The notes under the pieces: generated by a model
Told to the model about the DNA's origin: nothing
The model's input: only the letters and a program-made list of their open reading frames with translations
The model's database searches: none
Made by a program: the position numbers and the translations under genes
Shown: one piece after another, positions 4,244 to 33,860 of the stretch
Layout: each line of letters starts with the position of its first letter
Position numbering within the stretch: position 1 is the stretch's first letter
Assembly (NCBI GenBank): GCA_037043015.1
Contig: CM073322.1
Location: 6,955,601-7,019,600 of the forward strand
Direction: 5' to 3'
From: Bryum argenteum
Taxonomy: Eukaryota > Streptophyta > Bryopsida > Bryales > Bryaceae
Length of the DNA stretch: 64,000 nucleotides

Positions 4244-6467
4244 ATGGAGGAACAGAAGAATGCAAGCAACGGATCACTGCAGGGGCACGAATCACTCTAC
4301 CGCTTGTTATCGTCTGAGCTTCCACCACATCTCTTCCAGGTTCGTGTCTTGTATCACAAATTCTAGCTATTCTAACTCTCGCGTACCATCTGAGCAATGG
4401 ATTTGTAACGTTTCCGCTAGAGGATGGGTTTTTTCTTATTAAGGGTTTCGTAATTGGCAGGAAGTGAGCCGGGTTTTGTACGGATGCAACCGCGGGCGCG
4501 TCGTGACTCCTGTCGCACCTCAAGATGACGACGAATCCAAGCAAGACAATTTCGACCTTCAAGTACGTCTATATCTATCTAAACCTCTCGCTCAATTTGC
4601 TGAAACTTGGATAGGAGCTAACTCTTGTACTCGATTTGTTAGAAATTTGAATTCACGGCCGATCCAGAGCAAATGCGAGCGGCCAGAATTGTCACCGTCG
4701 GCTTGATCCAAAATGCAATCGTGCTGCCAACGACAGCCCCGTTCTTGCAGCAGAAACATGCAATCATGGAAAGAGTCGGTCGTCTCATTGACGCCGCTGG
4801 GAAATCTGGCGTGAACATCCTCTGCCTGCAGGTATAGCACACTTGCCATAGCCTAAGACTTTCGCTCAAACTCTCACAGCTATCTTCTTTTGAACCCCAG
4901 AAGAAAAGCATTGAGGATCAAGTATATCTCGCCGTGCATATAGCTTACTGAATTGTGAAGAGTTGGCCATCTTTTTCTATTGTATGTGGCAAGAGTGAGC
5001 AATTCTTTATTCAATGACGATGTCTATTAGTTATTCCGCAATCGGTGATCATGTGGAGCGGAAGGTTTGTCTGTGTTTGTTTCAAGGCTCTGAAAGTAAT
5101 TAGATGACAGGAAGCCTGGACAATGCCTTTTGCGTTCTGCACGCGCGAGAAGAGCTGGTGTGAGTTTGCCGAGAGTGCGGAAAACGGAGAGTCGACACAA
5201 TTTCTGCAAGCTTTGGCGCAGAAGCACAATATGGTGATTGTAAGCCCCATCTTGGAGCGAGACGAGGCCCACGGGAGCACCTTGTGGAACACCGCCGTCA
5301 TCATTGGAAATCATGGAAACGTTATTGGAAAGCACCGCAAGGTCCGTAGCCTCTACACTCGAACCTGTTTTTATTGCACAAGAAGTTTGCGGTTGGTTCA
5401 TGTTGTGGTTGAATGGCAGAATCATATTCCGCGCGTTGGGGACTTCAATGAGAGCACGTATTACATGGAAGGCAACACTGGTCATCCCGTTTTCGAGACG
5501 GAATTCGGCAAGATAGCAGTGAACATCTGCTATGGGAGACATCATCCCATGAACTGGCAAGCTTTCGGCATGAATGGAGCCGAGATTGTTTTTAATCCCT
5601 CTGCCACTGTGGGCGACCTCAGTGAACCCATGTGGCCTATCGAGGTTCATTCCCTCATCTCACAGCAAATCTCTTACTTTTGCTCATATAGATGCATTGG
5701 TAGAACTCCAACAGGCTTGGTGAAAATTGACACACTTTGCACTTGTGATGGTGTCGAGTACTAGCTCCTATTTTACACTAACTGCTTACTAAAATCTGGA
5801 ACATAAGCATAGCAACTGAACTTAAAAGAATGAGAATGATGTTAAGGTGACATAATATTGTTCAAGACTTTTTCAAATCTCTCGAACTAAATCGTAACGA
5901 CTGAACCACGATAACTGAACTCACAAGGATGAGAATGATGTTAAGGCGAAGTTACCTTGTTCAAGACATTGCCGTTTTTGTATCGAGCCAACTATTGAAG
6001 TGGAACTCAGAAAGGCCTAGTTCTCATCGTTTTGATGGATTGATTCTGCTGCCGAAGATTGATAGTGGGAGGTTTGGCAGGCTCGAAATGCGGCCATTGC
6101 CAACAGTTACTTCGTAGGAGCCATCAACCGTGTGGGGACGGAGGTGTTTCCACGGGAGTTCACATCCGGCGATGGAAAGCCAGCGCACAAGGACTTCGGC
6201 CACTTCTACGGCTCAAGCTTCATGGCTGCTCCTGATGCGTCGTGCAGCCCAAGCTTGTCCCGATGTCGAGATGGTTTACTCGTAGCAAAGCTGGACCTGA
6301 ATCTGTGCCAGCAGTTGAAGGACAAGTGGGGGTTCAGGTTGACTGCTCGGTACGACATGTACGCAGATTTCTTCAGGGATTATGTGAAGCATGACTTCAA
6401 ACCTCACGTGATTCGTGACCCCTGTTTGGATGGTCAGTCATCTGCCAAATGCAATGGTTCTGTATAG
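4244..6467 (+). CDS. PYD3: beta-ureidopropionase (beta-alanine synthase), six exons
   Basis: Third enzyme of reductive pyrimidine breakdown. It hydrolyses N-carbamoyl-beta-alanine (or the beta-aminoisobutyrate analogue) to the beta-amino acid, CO2 and ammonia, most likely in the cytosol. Exons: 4244-4339, 4461-4562, 4643-4831, 5111-5341, 5420-5644, 6081-6467. All introns are GT-AG and all junctions are phase 0. The joined frame is 409 residues, close to the roughly 408 of plant PYD3. Nitrilase-fold (carbon-nitrogen hydrolase) landmarks are all present: Glu about residue 130 ([16 protein letters not shown]), catalytic Lys206 (GKHRK, at the exon 4/5 junction) and Cys243 (NICYGRHHP). The start ATG at 4244 gives the short N-terminal helix ([19 protein letters not shown]) expected of the family. 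Nothing is missing, so it looks functional. Confidence 0.95.
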
Positions 6468-7329: not shown

Positions 7330-8695
7330 TTAACGGGTCCTTATAATTCCTGGGGTCGCAAGAGGGACGCTCCGGAGCAGAGTGACCTCCATGTTGAATC
7401 CGGGACCCAAGCCAACGAGAAATCCCCATTCGCAGCCAAGGCCAGTGGTGGCCGCGTGCTTGCTCGCGGACAACTTCCGCATTTCATTCAGAACGAACAA
7501 ACAAGTGGGGCTGGACATGTTTCCGAAGAGGCGCAGCACCTCCCAGCTCGGCTGCAGCTGCTCCTTCTCCAAACCGAATACCTCGGCCACGACTTCCAGA
7601 ATCCTGTACGCGCCCGGGTGCACCACCCAGAACATGTCCGGGTACTGAGGCGAGCCCACGAGGTCGCGCCCGGGAGAAGTCAGCTCGCCCAGGTGCTTCG
7701 CGATCAGACCCGGCACGACCGCCTTTTGTAGGTCCTGGACCAGACCCGACTCTGAAATATTGGCCGTGATGGCGCCCGCTGAGTTAGGGACCGCCATTTG
7801 GGTCGACCAATGGAGCTCAAAGATCGGGCGCTCGGACTCCACTGGATCCGCGCCAACAATCAGCGCGGCCGCACCGTCGCCCAACGTGCAATGAGCCAGG
7901 AACCCGTCCACTTTATACAGCGTCTCCTCGATCGGTTTCCGGAAGTTCATCACGGTGTTGGCTTCCACGGCGATGAGTAGCACGCGCGCATTCGCCGCGC
8001 TCTCCGCCAGGATTCGCCCCACGCGGACCACGGCGCCCCCACCCCAGCACCCCACCTGTTGCATGCAAATTCGTTGCACCGTCGGTGCCAAATTGAGCTT
8101 TCGAGCGATGGCCAGGTCGATCCCGGGGATTCCTGTGGCACTTGTGGTGGCTACCACCATGTGCGTGATGTCTGACAGTGGCCTTCCCCATTCTGCCACC
8201 GCTCTCTCTGTCGCCTCCGCTGCTATCTCTGGCACCACCTCGTTGCAGATCTTCACCCGTGTACTCAGACTCGCGTCGCTGTAGCTTGCGAACTCCGGGT
8301 ACTCCTTCACGAGTCTCGGCGTTACGAATGTGTGACGCTTCTCTATGCACGACTCGTCACCTGCACACAGGACCATCCCCGGGTCTCAAAACATACGATC
8401 GCAATCACCAATGAAACATGACACTTCCAGTTACCAAAAACTCGATCAATAACATGCAACTAGAAACCAAGACACTCTGCAAATCGCTGGGTATCAGGAT
8501 TGGTCAAAACTCACACATGCGCTTGAACCTGGCCTTGAGTGGTTCGTTGTCGCTCACACCGCACATTTCGAAAAGCTCGTCATGGTATGTGCTCTGCACA
8601 ATGGTGTCGGCAGGGAACGCGGTGCCGATGGCCAATACACAAGCAGGCCCCACTGGACGCGGCACAAGGCGAGGATGGACCCCATTCTCAACCAT
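7330..8695 (-). CDS. divergent type III polyketide synthase (intron-containing)
   Basis: Chalcone-synthase-superfamily enzyme of 403 residues. It should be a cytosolic homodimer condensing malonyl-CoA units onto a CoA starter. Exon 1 is 8515-8695 and exon 2 is 7330-8360, with a 154-base GT-AG intron. The intron splits a Cys codon (KRM-C-DESC), exactly the conserved chalcone synthase intron position. The Cys-His-Asn triad is intact: Cys165 (QQVGCWGGG), His308 (WVVHPG), Asn341 (GNMSS), and the GLGPG loop is present. Pocket positions differ strongly from chalcone synthase: Leu220 for Phe215, Met198 for Thr197, Asn195 for Thr194, Ala260 for Gly256, Gln269 for Phe265. A four-residue insertion precedes the Phe215 position. 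It is therefore unlikely to make naringenin chalcone; starter and product cannot be predicted. Same strand as the next synthase, so probably an old tandem duplicate. Confidence 0.9.
8361..8514 (-). other. conserved chalcone-synthase-type intron
   Basis: Starts GTGAGTTTTG and ends TGTGCAG on the - strand. It interrupts the Cys61 codon after its first base. This is the near-universal intron position of plant chalcone synthases, which supports the exon joining above. Confidence 0.9.
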
Positions 8696-10641: not shown

Positions 10642-11826
10642 TCAAGCGAGGGGCACAGCCTTGAGAACGGAGCATTCCATGGTGAGCCCGGGTCCAATTC
10701 CAATAAGCAACCCGAACTCCTTGCCCTCGCCCGTTGTCGAAGCTTTCTCGTCCTTAGAGCGCTGCCGGACACGATCCAGCACGAACAGCACGCAAGCGCT
10801 GGCCATGTTACCGTAGTCACGAAGAATGTCCCGACTCGCTCTCAGCTTCTCCGGAGCGAGCTCCAACTGATTCTCAATCTGGTTGAGAATCGCCACTCCA
10901 CCAGGATGCACAGCCCAGAAAAGGTCGTTGCACTCGGTGTTCTCTGCTTGCTGGCGCGCGTCCGTCACGAACTCCTCGATGCTCTTGGACACCAGCCGCG
11001 GGATGTCCGGTTTCAGATGGTAGTACATTCCTGCTTCCATTATGTGCCCATCGATGGCGCCCATGCTGTCCGGAACCACCATCTCCCCGGACCACAGAAT
11101 CTCGTAGAGTGGACGCTCGGATGGGAGCGGATCTGCACCCACGATCGCGGCTGCAGCGCCGTCGCCGAACAGTGCCTGCCCCACCAATCCATCGAGATAC
11201 TCCTCGTCGGGCGCGCGAAAGAAGATGGTGGTGCACTCGCTAGAGAGCACCAGCACGCGAGCACCCACATTATTCTCCGCGATGTCTTTCGCCACGCGCA
11301 ATAGCGCCGCGCCGCCCCAGCACCCGGTTTGGTACATCATTACGCGTCGGAGATTCCGGGACAATCCCAGCGCGTTCGCCACTATCAAGTCCATCCCCGG
11401 CATGTTCACCACGCTCGTAGTCGCCATGACCACATGGGTGATACTCTTCTTGTCACCTCCCCACTCCTGCAGTGCGGCTGTCGCGGCCTCCACTGCCAAC
11501 TTCGGGATCCATTCCATGAGAACCTTGTGGCGGTCACTCATGCTGCTGTCCATGAACGAGGCAATCGATGGGTAGAGCTCGAGAAGCTCTTTGCGGACCA
11601 CCATGTGACGCTTGTCGATCTGCATCTTGTCGCAAATGCGCTTGAACTTCGCTTTGAGCTCCGTCTTGTGGCTGCACTTGGTCTCCTCGAAGTAGTAATC
11701 TGGGTATGTGCTCTGCTCGTGCACGAAGGGCGGCACAGCCGTCCCGAGCGCGAGAATTGTCGCTGGTCCCTCCGGCCGCCTACGCCGCTGGCTCCGCACC
11801 CCATTCTCCACCGCAGCTGGCGCCAT
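10642..11826 (-). CDS. type III polyketide synthase, intronless
   Basis: Second chalcone-synthase-superfamily protein, 394 residues from the ATG at 11826. The open frame runs seven codons further upstream but has no ATG there. It is uninterrupted, so it lacks the family intron its neighbour keeps ([13 protein letters not shown] is continuous). Triad: Cys169 (YQTGCWGGA), His307 (WAVHPGG), Asn340 (YGNMAS); GIGPG loop present. Compared with chalcone synthase it keeps Phe215 (Phe220 here) and Gly256 (Gly260) but has Phe202 for Thr197, Tyr269 for Phe265 and Ala342 for Ser338. Thr197 and Ser338 are known determinants of starter choice and chain length, so a non-chalcone product (for example a stilbenecarboxylate, bibenzyl or pyrone) is plausible. 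The basic N-terminus ([20 protein letters not shown]) resembles bryophyte family members. Confidence 0.92.
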
Positions 11827-13421
11827 GTCCTCAGAATTCCCCAACAACTACCAGCTCGAGACCTCAAAAACTAGCTCTACACGGCAATGCAGCGATGGAT
11901 CGCAACTCTCAACCGCAATGTAGTGGTAAATTCCAAGTCTCAACTTCGAAGACTGGTTTTTAAGCGGCGAGACCACTGATTTTCCCGCTGTGTTTTGCGA
12001 GGATCTGAGCGGTGGAAGTGAATGTGGCAGTTCATGTAAGAGCTTTAATGAGTAGTAGCGATGGCATGAAAGCATTTCTAAAGAGTGGCATTGACGTGCC
12101 GAGTCTGGGTAGTGAGGACGAAGGCTGCCGGTCTGCCATGCTAGACGGCAAGAGGGCGGCCACGGCAACGGCGATGGAGTCTCCAGTTTGACTGATGACG
12201 ACCACTCTGACTTCATCCATTCCAAGTGGAGTCTCACGTTCCTTGTGGATTTCCTTGCAGTATCTCACCAAGCATAACTCTTGATGCCGGATTTGCCCTT
12301 TCACCTTTCGCTTAAATTACCTTCCTAGGTCATGTTCTTATCCTAAAATCTTATGTTATGATTATAGAAAAATTGTAAGAATAGAGGGGCCTATAGTAAT
12401 AAGGTCATAGAACTATGTTTATACTTTATATGTTATTAACTTATTATCACCCGCCTTATACAAGAACATTGACCATGTTACTTCACCCCCTTGAGGAGTA
12501 GGTTGATTGATAGAAATACAGATAAAATCTTCGTTCCCTTTCTAAGGGGCCGGCGCGAATGAATTGTCCGTTCGTGATGCTAATAACTCGATGTCCCGAT
12601 GCCCACGAGACAAGGGGAAAATGGAGGAGGAGGTCATTTTGAGGAGGAGTAGGCCATTATGAGCATCTATCTTTACCCCTAATAGTTCTCTCTTCCTATG
12701 AATTCGTAATGCTTGGTCTTAGATTGTTCCTCAATATTTCAAATTGCTCGGTTTCATAAGTTATATCTATTGCGACCCTCAAGAATTTGAGGAAATTGAA
12801 GCTTCTCATACCAATGCTCTTTTGAGGTTCGTACGGTCGCAAATTTGGAAATCATCTTGTGAAAAATTCATAAACAAACCCATAGACTTGCTTATTTCGA
12901 GGGAATAGTTGTTTAAGATATTCAAATGCTTCTACAATGATTCTCTTACCACGTATTCATATTCTAAATTCTTGAATCATTCAAAATTACCATTTACAAC
13001 AACATAGACAAGAATTGAAAGATACACAACATAATTATACAAGTAGAGACTTCTCATGTTAAAAATATATATGAAACTAAGGAACGCTGTGTTTTGAAGA
13101 TCTCTAACAGCCCTCACTCTCAAAATAGTACCCCTCCATATGAGTTCAATTTGCAAATTTTGATGCACATTGCTGTACAAATAAAATATGTTTAAAGGAG
13201 GGGAGCCATTTCAGGATCATTTGTCCCTTTTTCAACTTCAAAATTCATGGTTTATTCTACATAATCCAAAAAATACAAAACAAAGACAGTTCTTCATCAT
13301 TTTAATGTGCTACCTTTCAAGATTTTGATAAATATAATATCCCTCAAAACTCACTAAGCCACAAGAACACCATATTTGATATTTTGGGAGATTTCCAACC
13401 TCCCTATTTAATGACAGTTTA
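11827..13421. other. upstream region of PKS gene and AT-rich intergenic DNA
   Basis: 11827-12300 is GC-richer and presumably holds the promoter and leader of the - strand synthase. 12300-13421 is AT-rich with no recognised gene. Confidence 0.4.
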
Positions 13422-26546: not shown

Positions 26547-26805
26547 ACAGTGTTCTCGGGGGATTCACTTAGTGTAAAAATCTACAACTAGCTGCGAACA
26601 CGGGGTATTTTCAAGGGGGGTATTATCTTTGTTTAGATGAATATAGCACCATGTTTAGTTATATAATACCCCTAGATTGCTCAATTTATTATGCCGTTGT
26701 TTTTATTGTAATTTTTTTTAGCAGAAATAGTTTAGGGGCTAAGTTAGTTTAAAAATTTAGAATTAGACGTTATTTTTTTTCAAGTTAATGATAATTCCAC
26801 TTGCT

Positions 26806-27057
26806 CTATCTCTCTACAAATTTTCCCCGTGCACGAAAATTGCTTATGCTGGTGACATCCTTGTAGATTTCTCGTGCTAAAAATTGAGCCATTATTGAAC
26901 GTGACACACATTCAACACCAACACGAGCGATTTCGGAACACTCACATTTGCTCACAATCTGCATTTGTAACTCCAACATACCATTAGAAACATGATCCTC
27001 AAAGTTTGGTATGATGAAACAACGAAACCAATAGGCAGGAAGAGGACTGTCCAACAC
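26806..27057 (-). CDS. unrecognised frame inside transposon
   Basis: An 83-codon - strand frame (FIIPNFEDHVSNGM, CECSEIARVGVECV) in the same direction as the transposase. It has more balanced codon use than its surroundings but no recognised family. It may be a small accessory exon or gene, or a captured piece. A neighbouring - strand frame at 26999-27193 adds nothing I can identify. Confidence 0.25.
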   Translation of the reverse strand: MLDSPLPAYWFRCFIIPNFEDHVSNGMLELQMQIVSKCECSEIARVGVECVSRSIMAQFLAREIYKDVTSISNFRARGKFVER

Positions 27058-27320
27058 ACATAGAAAAATGAGAGCTAATCACACATTTGTGTCCACAGCC
27101 ACAATGCAAAGGGTTCTTGGTCCGGTTAAATCTACTCCCAGACCGTCTTGTGTCATGAGACACAGTCCTGGATGGACAATTAGCTGCCTGCAAGCAAAAA
27201 ACAGCCTGCCAAACACATCAAACAGTCCAAAGTGTTTAACAATGCACGGCTGAAAAGTCTAGCAAAACTGAATTCCACCGAGAAGAGAGGAGACTCAAAA
27301 AACTCCGTGGGCTGATGTTG

Positions 27321-27529
27321 TTACGCAAAAATTGTAAGATGGCTCATTCCGAGATCCTCGGCCGCACTCTGCCTGAACTCGCTCTCCAGGGAACTTCGCA
27401 GCCTCGCCAGGTCTGGAAGCTTTGCACGGGCAAAGTCGAAGTGAAGCTGCGCCTTCGAAAAGGCTGCAAAGTTGTCCGAGTCCAGAATCTCGCTGTGCGC
27501 TCGTGCTGGAGCTCCAGTGGAAATGCCTC
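27321..27529 (-). pseudogene. GC-rich coding-like fragment inside transposon
   Basis: An open - strand frame of about 69 codons without its own ATG (ILDSDNFAAFSKAQLHFDFA, then DLARLRSSLESEF) ends at TAA 27323-27321. Base composition and codon pattern are like the host genes, not like the AT-rich transposon. A possible splice acceptor (GCGCACAG) lies just upstream. Best explained as a captured host exon; the source gene is unknown. Confidence 0.35.
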
Positions 27530-27945
27530 AACCATACAACACCTCAGGTATTCAAATTAGTTCCCACTGATCAAACTTTTAATGGATGTACAGTACATTA
27601 AGGGGGTCTCAGGGTTTTGTGCGAATGTACCTTAAGGAAGTCCGAGGGTCTAAGTGAAACGCCCGTCATTCGTATGGGAACCCAAATTCCAGAATGTCAA
27701 GTCGTACGTTGCTCGATCAGGCCCTTGGAAATCCGTCGACTGCCCTTCCCGACGCACTTTGTTCGCACACAATAAGGTTCGCAGCAGATCCCACTAAATT
27801 TAAATTTCTAGCTACTGTGCTCACCCACGCCAAGATAAACCATGCCTTCTTAGAACTTGCACCAGGGGTTGTAGCTGCTGATGCTGCCATTTTTGGACCC
27901 AATAATATAACTGCATATTAACCAACAGGGATCCACAGGTCATCT

Positions 27946-28179
27946 TCACAGGTAGTAGGAAAACATCCCAATGCACCCTGCACTTTTACATATGCGAGAG
28001 TAAAGAGAGTCATGACCAGCACATGTGGGAACATTGGATACAACATTCGAGAGAATACGATCAACTAAAGATAGCACGCTGATCCAGCTTGCTGAATCGA
28101 TTCGAGAATGTGGTTCCACGGCTAACCAGAATTCTTCAGGAGCGCCTGTGTTGTTGAAGACAGATGTAGCAATGAACAT
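27946..28179 (-). CDS. possible downstream exon of transposase transcript
   Basis: A 77-codon - strand frame (GAPEEFWLAVEPHSRIDSAS) begins 27 bases past the end of the transposase frame, in a different phase. A donor-like GTAAGAG occurs at the end of the transposase frame, so a short intron could join them. Not provable from sequence. Confidence 0.25.
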   Translation of the reverse strand: MFIATSVFNNTGAPEEFWLAVEPHSRIDSASWISVLSLVDRILSNVVSNVPTCAGHDSLYSRICKSAGCIGMFSYYL

Positions 28180-28205
28180 ACCAGAGAAGAAATGAACATC
28201 ACCTC

Positions 28206-31200
28206 TTACTGCTTCGAAACGAAATCGTCTAGCACTTGTTTATCAGAATCCGCTAGACAATACACGTTCTGCCTACTGTTAAAGGTAAGAGCAACACTTG
28301 AGATTATGCAGTCGACATCAATCCATTGGGTGTCGGTGACATCATACTTAAACTTATTCCTGCCTGGACCTTTTGAGAACCAGTTGAACATAACTTGAAC
28401 CGTAGGAGAAGTACTTACCTTCTTACCTGTAGCTGTGGATCTATTCATCAGATCTATGGGGTTTCGTGAGGAGCCCCACTTCGTGCCATAGGACCTTCTT
28501 ATCTTCTGTACGCGGCCTATCCACCAAGAACCCGAGTCTGAACCAGCTGAAAGCAGAACTGGGGACCCCCTGCGCTGCAACCCCTGTCTATTGCGTTTCT
28601 GAGCAGCTCGGCATGTGGAATAAGTTGCTCTTGTATCATCTTGCTCAAAGTATACCCCGCAATCCGTACCTAGCCCAACCAAACATGTACTACTCGAACT
28701 AGAAGCAGAAAGGTAGTCTTCGGCATTATTGAAATACACTGAGTTCCGGATTCTGGTTAGTCTGTCCTTAGATAGGAAGGGATTTCCATTTAATTCAGAG
28801 ACTAACGTAGATTTGTATATAGTCTTACCTGCATACTCGACCACTGGTGAGATTCTTACCGTCCTTTCACCTGCCACGGCGCTCGTCTCCGGCTGCAATT
28901 CAGATGAATTGAGGATGTCTCGAATTGCGTGTCTGCACTCGTCCTCGGCAACTTGAAGATTATCTAGACCGTCTTCACTTATCGCATCTTCTGACTCCTA
29001 TACATCTGGACTATGTTCTAAATCACAAGGAATTTGAGAGTCCGGTGCAAGGGTCTCTCTCATCACCTCGCCGTCACCGTCTTCTCCTGGAACAGGACGG
29101 GTAGGGGGACCGTAACACCAGTGCTTATCATCTGCGGCCTCTAGAGCCCACGGCTCCAAGAACTACTTCTTCTCTCTTGCAACAGTTGACGGTGCCATGT
29201 TCAGAACTCGGAGGGTAGCTTGCGCAGATTTGAAGCCCTCTTGCAGACATAGGATCATATCAGCGTCGGTCTCCAGACCGGTGTAGTCGCTAAAATTTGC
29301 AGCGGTCTGATTCGATCCCAAGGGGTGTAGCTTCGCCCAGATATTCCGTTGTTTGTTGTGGACTCTATCGAACTTCAGACCGTTCTCGCCGTACTCAATT
29401 GCGGCCAGGTGGTTCACGGTGTTAGCACAACCTAGTAATTCATGGAAATCATAAGATCTCTCCATTCCCTGCATCCCTCCTACTTTACTGAAGAATATCT
29501 CACAGGAATCGGACCCGGTTAGATGAAGTGGGACAGACAACTCACTATGGAAATCACGGAAATACTTTACCAAAAGGACGACAAAGTGACATGATAATTG
29601 AATTTCTATATAGCATTGATTACTTACAAAACACTCTTGAACTGAGAGGGTTTTAGTGTTACCTCCGACACTATGATCGCCATGTTTGATCCAGAGTTTC
29701 CATAGTCTGAAAAAAAAAGAAACCTTGGCTGCGAGCACAACTCTATCTCGAAGACTTAATGATTCTGAAAGAAAAATATCTACATAATCAGAAACTATCT
29801 GCAGGTACATCTGTGTCCCCAGCGTCCTCTCCTGATGTGCGTCTCTTTCAATCTGCAATTTCCTCAGACTGTCCCTTACCTTCAATGAGCAAAGTCGTTG
29901 CGCACTTGCCCAATTCTGCCTATCACTTCTCTGTACATCCTCTTGCCTAAGACCGTGATCATCATAGGTGAATTTATTATAGACTTGTCCAATATGCTCA
30001 AGCAGACAAACATCTGCCCCCAACTGGATACTCTTTACTGCGCTGTCTAACGGATTTATAAGTTTCTTTCCGTTGTGTACATAATCTTGATCATGCAATT
30101 CTACAATACGACCAGAGCTAAGAATCAAACCGGATAGAGACCACCCTGCCCAAGGTAGACAGTACCTGACCCCCACCTTGTCGGTATAGTCTTTGATCAT
30201 GAGCTGCCGACGCCTAGAATCCCCATCCGATGCATGTCCAATTATGGGACCCACGGCCTCTTCACAATGAACCTGCCACAACTCGTCAATGGCAACCCAC
30301 TGCTCCCTCACCCACGCAGAATTAAAACAGTTGCATGTGACGTTGACGACGAGCACAAGCCGAGGCAATTTATCATGCAAAGGGTTGACCATGATAACTC
30401 TAGCGAAGCTGCCAATCTGATTAGTCCTAAACGATTCTACTATGTTAGTGTAGCCAGCTTCTCCAAATCCAACATTCGGCTTGAAATGTGAATCACAGCG
30501 ATGATTGTCTTTGGCACCACAGAACCCGACAAGGACATCAGAACGTGACTCCCATGAGATCCGACTCTTGACTTTAGTCTCATCTTCGGCGAGTATAACT
30601 GGCACTGGCCCGAGAATCCCGTGGACCCGCTTCGCTTCTCTGTAAATCTGGGCAACGGAATTGAAGATCACACCGTGTTCTCCTGCCACAAACTGCACGC
30701 CTTTCTTGTTCTCTCGCTTAGTACTGGAATACGATGGAGCAGCAAAATTCAAAGAGAATAAGTCACACATGCGTCTTCCACCATATATTTTCATGGCTTG
30801 GGAAAATGACTTGGTATTTTTTGAGTACCTAAAACCTTGTTTCTCACGGTTCAGATTAGTGGCGACATCTCTGAGGAAGTCCCACAATGCTGGCTTCCCC
30901 CCGAACGCATTGGTTCTGTGTGCAGCGACGATGTTGTTACAGAATGCTAACACGTCTTTTCGATTAAAATTCTCCAGCGCACTCAATTTCAGACCCTTCG
31001 ATGTCAGTTTCAACTGCGCTAGTTTAGCCTTCAGCAACCAATGCGATGTCTTCTCCTCTTTGTATTTCCGGGCAAGGACTCTACTACGACCAGCCAATTC
31101 TCTAATTGACAGGTAGTCGACCCTACGCCCAGGACACATATCACGGAAACCTCTCTTAACTGCTGCATGGTTCTCTCGCAAGACTCTCATCCGAAAGTCA

Positions 31201-32699
31201 TTCTCCCTATGAATTTCATTGCATTCAGAACACGTGAAATTCAGGAAAGGTTCGCCTGTTATGCTAAGTCGTTTACATTTGACGTGACGAAAATACCCGT
31301 CGACTGTACAAAGGACACCCTGATACATGAACTCGGTAGAGGTTGCAGGCTCTGGAACCCACAACCTCCCTGGTTTCGGGTCATGCAAGAGAGACATATA
31401 CTCGTAATCTAAATTTCCGTATAATATAGACGGACCCCTTAATCCCCAGCACAGCAAACTAAGGGGACAGGAACACTCACCAGATTCGGAGGAGCCTGTC
31501 GAGTATTTGTCAGACGCCCTAAACCAGCTATGGAGGTCCTGCTGGTTTCCAATTGTTCGTGTGGAAGAAGACGGTCTGCCTCTACGACCAGTGTAAATGG
31601 CATTCGATGAGGTCCTCTCTGCAGCTGATATGTCCTGCACGGCCTTACTATGCTTCAAACCGTGGATATGGTTCTCCAGGTTTGCTTTCAGATTCTTCCT
31701 CGCAGGACAAAGCTGAAAAATCTCCCCATCCACCTTGCACCGTACCTTGTACCAGAAAGATTTCAACCGAGTAGCATCTTCATCACCAATCACCACAAAA
31801 GGACCTAAATTGCCAACAACGGAGTTGTTAACCTCCTCAAGAACCCTAAGACCTTCCTCAACCAACCGCTTGTGGTCAGCTGCCGTCAGGAGTATTGATT
31901 TTCCCTTACACGCTTGAGACTGCGGATGGTTTGAGTAATCCACACCCTTCCTCCGACACCAGGACCTGATATGCAACGAGGACTGAAGGTGAGAGTTCTT
32001 AAAATTCGCAAACAAATTGTGAATCGCCGACTTGGAGTGATCACCAGTAGAGTTTCCAAAATCCTTCTTGCATTCTCCGCAATGCAACTTCACCACCCCA
32101 ACGTTGTTCTGATCATAGGATTTCAGGTGCCAGAGATGGTCGTCGAAATCCATCTCTGAGAGTTCCTTTTGTAACTTCTCGACTTGGCTCTTGAACTTCT
32201 CCATTACATCGTCCAATACTAACGTTGCCTTCAGATTCGATGCCGAGTACGAATCACTCCCATCCGGCAACACTGCAGATAGAGTTATAAGAGACGAGGT
32301 AGTCGGTTCCGCAGCAGCGTCCGAATAAACCGGGACTTCAAACTCCTCAACGGGGGGGCAAAACCCTAACACTTCCTCTCCATCTCTGGATTCCCCGCCT
32401 TCTCTCCATGATCCGTCATTTGTTCTCCTCCGCTTGGCCAGTCCTTCATCTCCGACCTCGGAAGCAGGAATGACGTAGACTTTGTCTCCCACGGTGTTCA
32501 TCCCCTCGAACGTCCTCTTGATTCTGCACTTCTCATCAACGTCCCAGAACTCGAATGGCCATTCCACGCAACCCGCAGACTCGAGCTTTGCCCTCAAATC
32601 CTTACAGGAGTCATTCTCACGGCAAACCAAGGGACTAATCAATACAGGGTTTGAAGATTCATCGACCAGAGTATACAGCTTCACCTTGCACAAAGACAT
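28206..32699 (-). pseudogene. long DDE transposase, P-element/THAP9-like, two TAG breaks
   Basis: The ATG at 32699 opens 1178 codons to TAG at 29165-29163. The same frame then runs 54 codons to a second TAG at 29000-28998 and on to TAA before 28206, about 1497 codon positions in all. Three candidate zinc-binding clusters: Cys207/Cys210/His227/His237; Cys321/Cys331/His344/His350; Cys464/Cys475/Cys490/Cys493/His497. The RNase-H-like core shows Asp706 in AEDETKVKSR with LVGFCG behind it, Asp825 in HASDGDSRRR, and Asp1064 with Glu1067 in GSDSCEIFFSKVGG. The pattern DE-x-x-K, then LVGF, then D-x-x-E-x-FFS is what P elements and THAP9 have. The part after the second TAG (KTIYKSTLVSELNG, FLSKDRLTRIRN) looks like a conserved C-terminal domain, so the TAGs are probably mutations. 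The residues 1-85 module is unassigned. Confidence 0.75.
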
Positions 32700-33017
32700 C
32701 CTTTGCAGAACACACAAGTGAAAAACTGACCACCTAATCGATACAGAAAACAATTTAACAAAATCCTAACAGTCAAGAGATTGGAAGCGAAATATTAGAG
32801 AGCTTCGTGAGTTGTCGTTGCTTTGCAACACGACGCACGTGAGTATACAAAACCCTAAACTCGTTTACTTCGGCTCCATCTTGCACCCTACACAGTTCAC
32901 AGAACTCGTGAGAGCTTGCCGCCAAGTATTGCCGTTGGCTCATGGATAAGAGTAAACCGCGCGAGAACACGTGAACCCCCCCCCCTCCAATTCTCCCGCC
33001 CAGATCTAAGCCGTCGA

Positions 33018-33118
33018 TCTAAAACCCTCCATCCAACGGTCAAAACCGCCTAAACCCAAACCCTATACCCTAGGCTCTAATTTTAAACATCATAAACCCT
33101 AGTTCTAAATACCCTAAA
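33018..33118. promoter_or_regulatory. cluster of telo-box-like AAACCCTA motifs
   Basis: Several TAAACCC/AAACCCTA variants lie 320-420 bases upstream of the transposase ATG, inside the element. In plants telo boxes mark promoters of highly expressed or cycling-cell genes. This may be part of the transposase promoter, or a degenerate simple repeat. Confidence 0.25.
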
Positions 33119-33376
33119 CTCTATCACATCCACTCATTTTGGATTCTAGTCAAGACTAATTAATATATGGCATACTACATTAATATTAAAAATTATCTAA
33201 CATGAACTAAAAATATGCACCCTACATTACTTTGAATTTATCCCCCATATTTTCTCGAGCCCTATAATAAAACAAACAATTTTATAAATTTTAGGCCAAT
33301 GGAATAGAAAATACCGTATATTTGTTCTCTCCTAGTTTCTAACTCTTCCGCTTAGTGAATCCCCCGAGACAGTGTT

Positions 33377-33860
33377 AGCTAATATAGGAATGTTGTGCAT
33401 GCTTTTGTTGTTCCCAACAACACTTATTTGCCGAAATTCAAACAATTAGTCAATTGGGTGCAATTGATAGCAATTAGTATTGAAATGCAAACTCATTCTG
33501 TATGATTTGGTCTACAAGTAGTCAGATCCATATAGTATAACCAACAAACAGTCAATTCTGTGCAAATGATATCAGTTAGTATTGAAATGCAAACTCATTC
33601 TGAATAATTGAGTGTTCAAGTAGTTAGATCCATATTGTATAACGAATCTGTTTGTATAAAAGATAAGATGAAGGTGTGTGAAGATATCATATTCATTCAC
33701 TTCCTTGATAAGTTTAAGTTATCATACTATGAGAGAAAAAATGTCTTAAGTCAATGACCATAAACGGAGATCAACCTATTTATATAATTTTTAATTATCT
33801 ACTTGCCTTGTTGTTCTATGAAAAGTAAGAAATAGATCGTTGGTATACATAACCACTTGT
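33377..33860. other. AT-rich spacer
   Basis: Contains a short imperfect direct duplication (GTATTGAAATGCAAACTCATTCTG near 33478 and 33578). No gene. Confidence 0.4.

Follow-up and report, generated by a model that had tools for sequence, protein, structure and literature searches.

P elements are the textbook example of transposons that depend on guanosine triphosphate (GTP), and the accounts drawn on here report them from animals and, as distant homologues, from amoebozoa and chromalveolates. The P-element family of Pfam, for example, is described as insect sequences together with such distant homologues (PMC3985635), and one flowering plant is reported to be without the superfamily (PMC11939994). 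The P superfamily carries the signature D, D, [C/D](2)H, E (PMC8230255), and eight residues that contact GTP have been named in the P transposase itself (PMC7776569). Here we describe an element of the moss Bryum argenteum that is very probably a DNA transposon of the cut-and-paste type, from a clade related to this superfamily. It lies within a 64,000-nucleotide stretch of contig CM073322.1 (positions 6,955,601 to 7,019,600, forward strand; assembly GCA_037043015.1), hereafter the window, in whose coordinates positions are given unless otherwise stated.

The transposon occupies window positions 26555-33368 (6814 bp), limits that are exact to the base, and ends in a perfect 15-bp terminal inverted repeat flanked by an 8-bp target-site duplication, just as the original prediction had delimited it. 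Its outer features are as follows.

26547..26554, no strand: left target-site duplication, ACAGTGTT (sequence read)
26555..26569, plus strand: left terminal inverted repeat, CTCGGGGGATTCACT (sequence read and genome 15-mer search)
26586..26600, plus strand: AACTAGCTGCGAACA, a candidate subterminal motif at bases 32-46 counted from the left end (by inspection)
33323..33337, minus strand: AACTAGGAGAGAACA, a candidate subterminal motif at bases 32-46 counted from the right end (by inspection)
33354..33368, minus strand: right terminal inverted repeat, CTCGGGGGATTCACT (sequence read and genome 15-mer search)
33369..33376, no strand: right target-site duplication, ACAGTGTT (sequence read)

The exact 15-mer occurs at eight places in the 258.8-Mb genome and the reversed pattern, used as a control, at none, which excludes a chance origin of these ends. 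The eight places are the ends of five elements, in two of which one end is a single-base variant, and each of the five is flanked by an exact duplication of its own (ACAGTGTT, GAAATTCA, CCTAGTGT, AGTAGCCA and CCAAATTG). Relaxing the pattern to allow A or C at base 14 and at most one mismatch gave 31 matches and 17 in the control, and inexact end matches alone are therefore uninformative. The end pairs seen among these 31 matches were those of the five known elements, so that no short non-autonomous copies came to light by this route, which more diverged ends would escape. One copy, L012 (2356-7317), is 4962 bp long with good ends, a duplication and a shortened interior, and is thus internally deleted. 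On contig C7 (6799442-6811891), a cluster of eleven places that differ from the end pattern by one mismatch, all CTCGGAGGATTCAAT and all on the same strand, lies within about 12.5 kb and is possibly a tandem repeat.

A search of the genome with the protein returned 49 rows, which merge (rows less than 6 kb apart) into at least 35 places; this is a lower bound, because 39 of 127 candidates were scored. Five further copies (L065-L069) were chosen among the 35 places for long or open frames, and their flanks were scanned, with no end sequence presumed, for an exact 8-bp direct repeat combined with inverted matches at 9 or more of 12 positions. Of the five, four yielded end pairs with 11 or 12 of 12 matches, at duplications CAAGAATG (L065), TAATATTG (L066), CGCACAAC (L068, which also has a weaker end candidate at 9/12) and GCTCCCTG (L069). 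When the flanks were shuffled (200 shuffles at each of the five loci), none of the 1000 reached 11 or more of 12 inverted matches together with an exact 8-bp repeat. Across the 259-Mb genome, related inverted ends with differing exact 8-bp duplications thus delimit nine of the ten copies examined; the ends that the original prediction took from a single copy hold throughout these nine. Although subfamilies start differently (CTCGGGGGATTCACT, CTCGGGGAGTTCACT and CYCGGGGGGGGCACW), CYCGGGG opens all 18 ends of the nine elements, and CAC stands at bases 12-14 in 16 of them, the exceptions being the left ends of L011 and L012. The two subterminal motifs of the window copy are alike at 12 of 15 bases and, by eye, other copies have similar motifs at about the same distance from their ends. 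The motif at bases 32-46 may be regarded as a candidate transposase-binding site.

Empty sites were sought for three insertions (the window copy, L065 and L068), and counterparts were found for two. Insertion was precise: L065 sits inside a repeat, and when its flanks are joined around a single copy of the duplicated 8 bases, the resulting 300-base sequence aligns along its whole length with four uninterrupted places (100, 100, 99 and 98% identity). L068 lies inside a different repeat, for which 20 of 40 rows cover bases 1-300 uninterrupted at 90-98%. Since counterparts of L065 are identical to its joined flanks, this comparison points to recent movement. Copies also resemble one another closely, the window copy being 98.5% identical to L009 and L065 98.0% identical to L069, with every copy at a separate site. 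By our own reading, the repeat that hosts L068 contains a Copia-like reverse transcriptase stretch and that of L065 a transposase-like coding stretch; both are nested insertions.

The original prediction had described one very long protein, with three candidate zinc-binding clusters and a P-like DDE core. An open reading frame of 1178 residues does run from the first ATG, but it covers just the first four fifths of the gene, whose frame continues to 28206, giving 1497 codons, and is broken in the window copy by two stops. The gene and the regions of its product, in order along the protein, are listed here; zinc binding is suggested by the cysteine and histidine patterns in the alignment.

28206..32699, minus strand: transposase gene, a single frame of 1497 codons plus TAA, interrupted by TAG at 29163-29165 and 28998-29000 (frame and alignments of relatives)
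29163..32699, minus strand: 1178-residue open reading frame, ATG to first in-frame stop, inside a 1200-residue open stretch (list of open reading frames)
31959..32087, minus strand: putative zinc cluster 1 (CGEC ... H ... H), within residues 205-247 (alignment)
31641..31745, minus strand: putative zinc cluster 2, within residues 319-353 (CxxC ... H ... H in 7/9 rows; CKVD in the window copy) (alignment)
31212..31292, minus strand: putative zinc cluster 3 (FRHxxC ... CxxC), residues 470-496 (alignment)
30699..30851, minus strand: stretch that aligns to the helix-turn-helix domain of P, roughly residues 617-667 (profile alignments)
30207..30602, minus strand: RNase H-like domain, first part, about residues 700-831; D706 (30582-30584) corresponds to P D230 and D825 (30225-30227) to P D303
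29595..30089, minus strand: stretch that aligns to the insertion (GTP-binding) domain of P, roughly residues 871-1035, with D872/H875 opposite D339/H342 of P
29406..29594, minus strand: RNase H-like domain, last part, about residues 1036-1098; E1067 (29499-29501) corresponds to P E531
28749..28820, minus strand: conserved C-terminal motif IYKSTLVSEL...LSKDRLTRI (profile alignment)
28209..28688, minus strand: C-terminal module, homologous to a module that scores as BAH in relative P0040 (profile comparison)

Beyond the end of the 1178-residue frame, six of the nine relatives tested align in frame to 28209-28218 and three end earlier. In the window copy the two in-frame stops are both TAG, and with them in its frame this copy, though its ends are intact, should move only with an enzyme made elsewhere. 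Other copies have longer open frames: measured from stop to stop, L065 is open throughout over 1502 codons, L066 over 1402 (matched from residue 151 only) and L067 over 1389. Neither L068 nor L069 has an intact frame (the longest pieces are 944 and 646, respectively), and a full-length frame is absent from each of L009-L012. The proportions of synonymous (pS) and non-synonymous (pN) differences were 0.83 and 0.11 for the window copy and L011 (604 codons), and 0.86 and 0.30 for L065 and L066 (1391 codons), which argues for purifying selection on the protein while the copy lineages diverged. Long open frames and purifying selection would also fit a domesticated host gene family rather than mobile elements. 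However, the matching ends, the differing 8-bp duplications and the nested insertions with empty counterparts refute this for the nine copies with ends, and we give domestication next to no credence.

The evidence that the core of this protein is related to P transposase comes from comparing profiles, which was done because matches to the Pfam P models were only weak. The reference profile was built on a Drosophila query with 17 of 120 listed P transposases aligned, hand-chosen for length and diversity. Against it, a family profile of 29 sequences (A5) scored Prob 96.0 (E 4.1e-9, score 87.5, 389 columns), a ten-sequence core (A2) Prob 98.3 (E 1.7e-14, score 129.5, 408 columns) and three distant members (A6) Prob 97.8 (E 1e-12, score 108.8, 403 columns); these queries overlap, A6 lying within A2, and A2 and A5 having members in common. 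Reversed P profiles scored 17.7-23.1 and 120 column shuffles (40 per query) at most 31.6. Sequence identity to P in the A5 and A2 alignments is 15%.

The alignments place the catalytic residues in register. With A5 and A2, P residues D230, D303, D339, H342 and K345 fall on D706, D825, D872, H875 and K878 of the moss protein, and D444, D528, E531 and F534 on D974, D1064, E1067 and F1070. The DDE triad is kept in nearly every A5 row (D706 in 28/28, with one gap; D825 in 28/29; E1067 in 29/29), and the D(2)H signature (D872, H875) in all 29. The motifs DETKVK, SDGDS and SDSCEIFF, from whose order a P-like DDE transposase had originally been proposed, are present as described.

An 8-bp duplication is not peculiar to P. 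The hAT elements form another superfamily with duplications of this length, and hAT domains abound in this genome, with at least 150 matches (150 of 476 candidates scored), many of which, by eye, lie on contig C1 (44.1 Mb), a contig that may differ in nature. A hAT origin of the moss element is nevertheless extremely improbable. Profile comparison with hAT proteins of the same genome gave Prob at most 1.5 and a score of at most 27.3, in a thin control made of four near-identical proteins and one single open reading frame, with hAT as the only other superfamily compared; on this result hAT membership was rejected. Moreover, no hAT model is listed for the window protein or in the family tables of two sets of its relatives, A3 (25 of 31 families) and A8 (all 8).

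Large transposases with zinc clusters are also found among the KDZ (Kyakuja-Dileera-Zisupton) elements. All three putative clusters of the original prediction can be recognised here, but the second lacks, in the window copy, a cysteine that seven of nine spanning rows have. The KDZ model PF18758 is not listed for the window protein or in the same A3 and A8 tables, and the duplications, being 8 bp of varied sequence, differ from the TTAA that Kolobok elements target. On these model listings and target sequences we consider a Kolobok or KDZ relative very unlikely, even though one passage of PMC8616336 names 'P element/Kolobok' jointly.

Several observations weigh against the reading that this is a mobile element related to P. 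No Pfam or NCBIfam model exceeds its cut-off for the window protein, and the matches of its relatives to P models, while collinear, are weak (PF12017 at best 0.0028, PF21788 0.13), all printed P-model scores being under cut-off; PF21787 is listed for 4 of 45 A3 members (limit 1, best 0.014) and 2 of 28 A8 members (limit 0.1, best 2.6e-4). In the A6 alignment the first catalytic D is shifted by two columns and D528 lies opposite Q. P transposase was not listed when solved structures were searched with the protein and with two family profiles, and the matches that did appear were at chance level. The THAP domain (PF05485) is listed neither for the window protein nor for the open copy L065, and it is absent from the A3 and A8 tables, in which many relatives are without an N-terminus. 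Five of the eight GTP contacts differ in the window protein (K385, K400, V401, F443 and N447 of P) and three are the same (S409, D444 and D528); across the 29 A5 rows, the equivalent of D528 is D in 23, that of D444 is kept in 12 and that of S409 in 9. As regards mobility, the end scan of L067 gave no end pair, one end-like sequence being visible, and no clean empty site was found for the window copy, for which one 72% partial match crosses the junction. A genome search with the P Pfam model found nothing here and is uninformative, because it also found nothing in 14 control genomes.

Taken together, the core sequence, the signature and the duplication make membership of the P superfamily likely. 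'P-related' is nonetheless better supported than 'a P element', given that no THAP domain came to light and that the majority of the GTP contacts have changed; the P-like DDE transposase of the original prediction stands in its profile match and the register of its residues, and departs from P in these two respects.

The C-terminal part of the frame adds a further difference. Across the relatives the conserved motif has the consensus KSTLV...LSxDRLxRV and is followed by the module, for which a profile of eight plant-type sequences matches one of six other relatives at Prob 99.6 (E 1.3e-23; reversed control 0.7). Of ten C-terminal pieces, one, that of P0040, has a BAH match (2.4e-6). Whole P0040 reaches 24.3 bits for BAH, with a cut-off of 30.8, and BAH is listed for 1 of 45 A3 members; P0035, a close relative of P0040, has no BAH score, and neither the C-terminal profile nor the P0040 piece retrieved a solved BAH domain in the structure search. 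Since the other members and the structure searches gave no BAH, the label depends on P0040 and on the module's homology. Another relative, P0064, ends in a Tudor domain, which scores above cut-off. The C-terminal module may have a chromatin role. At the other end of the protein, there may be a ubiquitin-like fold; the only PDB match of the N-terminus has E 0.61.

These features raise the possibility of a separate superfamily sharing an ancestor with P, with the same DDE chemistry and 8-bp staggering but other end recognition, no GTP cofactor and a C-terminal module of its own. This would be a sharper form of the P-related reading rather than its exclusive rival, and we hold it to be possible, if somewhat less probable than its opposite. 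That no THAP domain was seen, the five changed GTP contacts, the low identity to P, the Pfam P models under cut-off, and a C-terminal module common to plant-type and other relatives, coral included, all speak for it. Conversely, the match to P is collinear over the helix-turn-helix, both RNase H parts and the insertion region, the D(2)H signature is invariant in A5 and the duplication is like that of P. In its most extended form, the proposal is of a P-related superfamily reaching from liverworts and ferns to corals, with a GTP-free transposase of about 1500 residues, zinc clusters replacing THAP at the ends and a chromatin-reading C-terminus of its own (BAH-like, with Tudor in one relative) that steers insertion; this we regard as tentative and, as a whole, rather unlikely. 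What we favour is a DNA transposon with defined limits, present in many copies, whose transposase is P-related and which possibly belongs to a superfamily of its own.

On this P-related reading, the transposase would bind the terminal and subterminal repeats through the N-terminal zinc-like clusters, the P-like helix-turn-helix or both, and pair the element ends. Cutting would be carried out by the RNase H-like DDE site (D706, D825 and E1067), the ends would be joined to target DNA at an 8-bp stagger, and host repair would turn this stagger into the target duplication. More speculatively, the C-terminal module might help to choose or hold chromatin at the target.

Relatives were found in the liverworts Riccia sorocarpa and Calypogeia fissa, the fern Adiantum nelumboides and the coral Desmophyllum pertusum, in protein searches that scored just those candidates with the largest number of shared words. 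Their proteins have the same core, at 35-52% identity to that of the window, and a nearly identical set of conserved residues. All are protein predictions, hypothetical or unnamed, and several are incomplete. The C-terminal module is present in Calypogeia P0019 and coral P0049 and, by eye, in Adiantum P0063; a fern protein, P0072, has N in place of the second catalytic D. Phage and plasmid collections gave no match, and of four pattern matches in viral contigs none codes for a relative. No description of the moss family appears among the titles and abstract openings listed in searches of open-licence literature, which does not show its absence from print.

Elsewhere in the window, two genes of the chalcone/stilbene synthase family (type III polyketide synthases) lie on the minus strand at 7330-8385 and 10642-11847, well above the Pfam cut-off, and a piece of a carbon-nitrogen hydrolase gene on the plus strand at 5108-5764 (PF00795, 9.4e-31). 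By themselves, the two synthase genes and the liverwort relatives would suggest a land plant, perhaps a bryophyte. Just to the right of the transposon, at 33441-33643, there are two tandem copies of a 102-base unit (85% matches).

The Wicker classification table is said to give P for plants already. A land plant with a clearly delimited P-related family that shows signs of having moved recently would widen the known range of P. The closest comparison is Drosophila P transposase (PDB 6p5a; PF12017, PF21787, PF21788 and PF21789), with which the moss protein is collinear as described above, with equivalents of D230, D303, D339(2)H342, D444, D528 and E531. Both elements make an 8-bp duplication and have inverted ends with subterminal motifs, the ends being 15 bp in the moss element and 31 bp in Drosophila P. 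In contrast to the fly protein, with its 751 residues, the moss frame has about 1500 codons, an extra C-terminal module and, with no THAP domain seen, zinc-like clusters and possibly a ubiquitin-like start at its N-terminus, in addition to the changed GTP contacts and 15% identity. By their descriptions, THAP9 and the zebrafish P-like transposon have the DDE triad and D(2)H signature in common with the moss element, and the zebrafish transposon also has short ends (13 bp) and an 8-bp duplication, as here (PMC7776569, PMC8230255); both of these carry a THAP domain, whereas none was seen in the moss protein. The natural variants described here separate features that are found together in flies, namely THAP, the GTP pocket and the DDE core, and point to a transposase that may bring its own chromatin reader.

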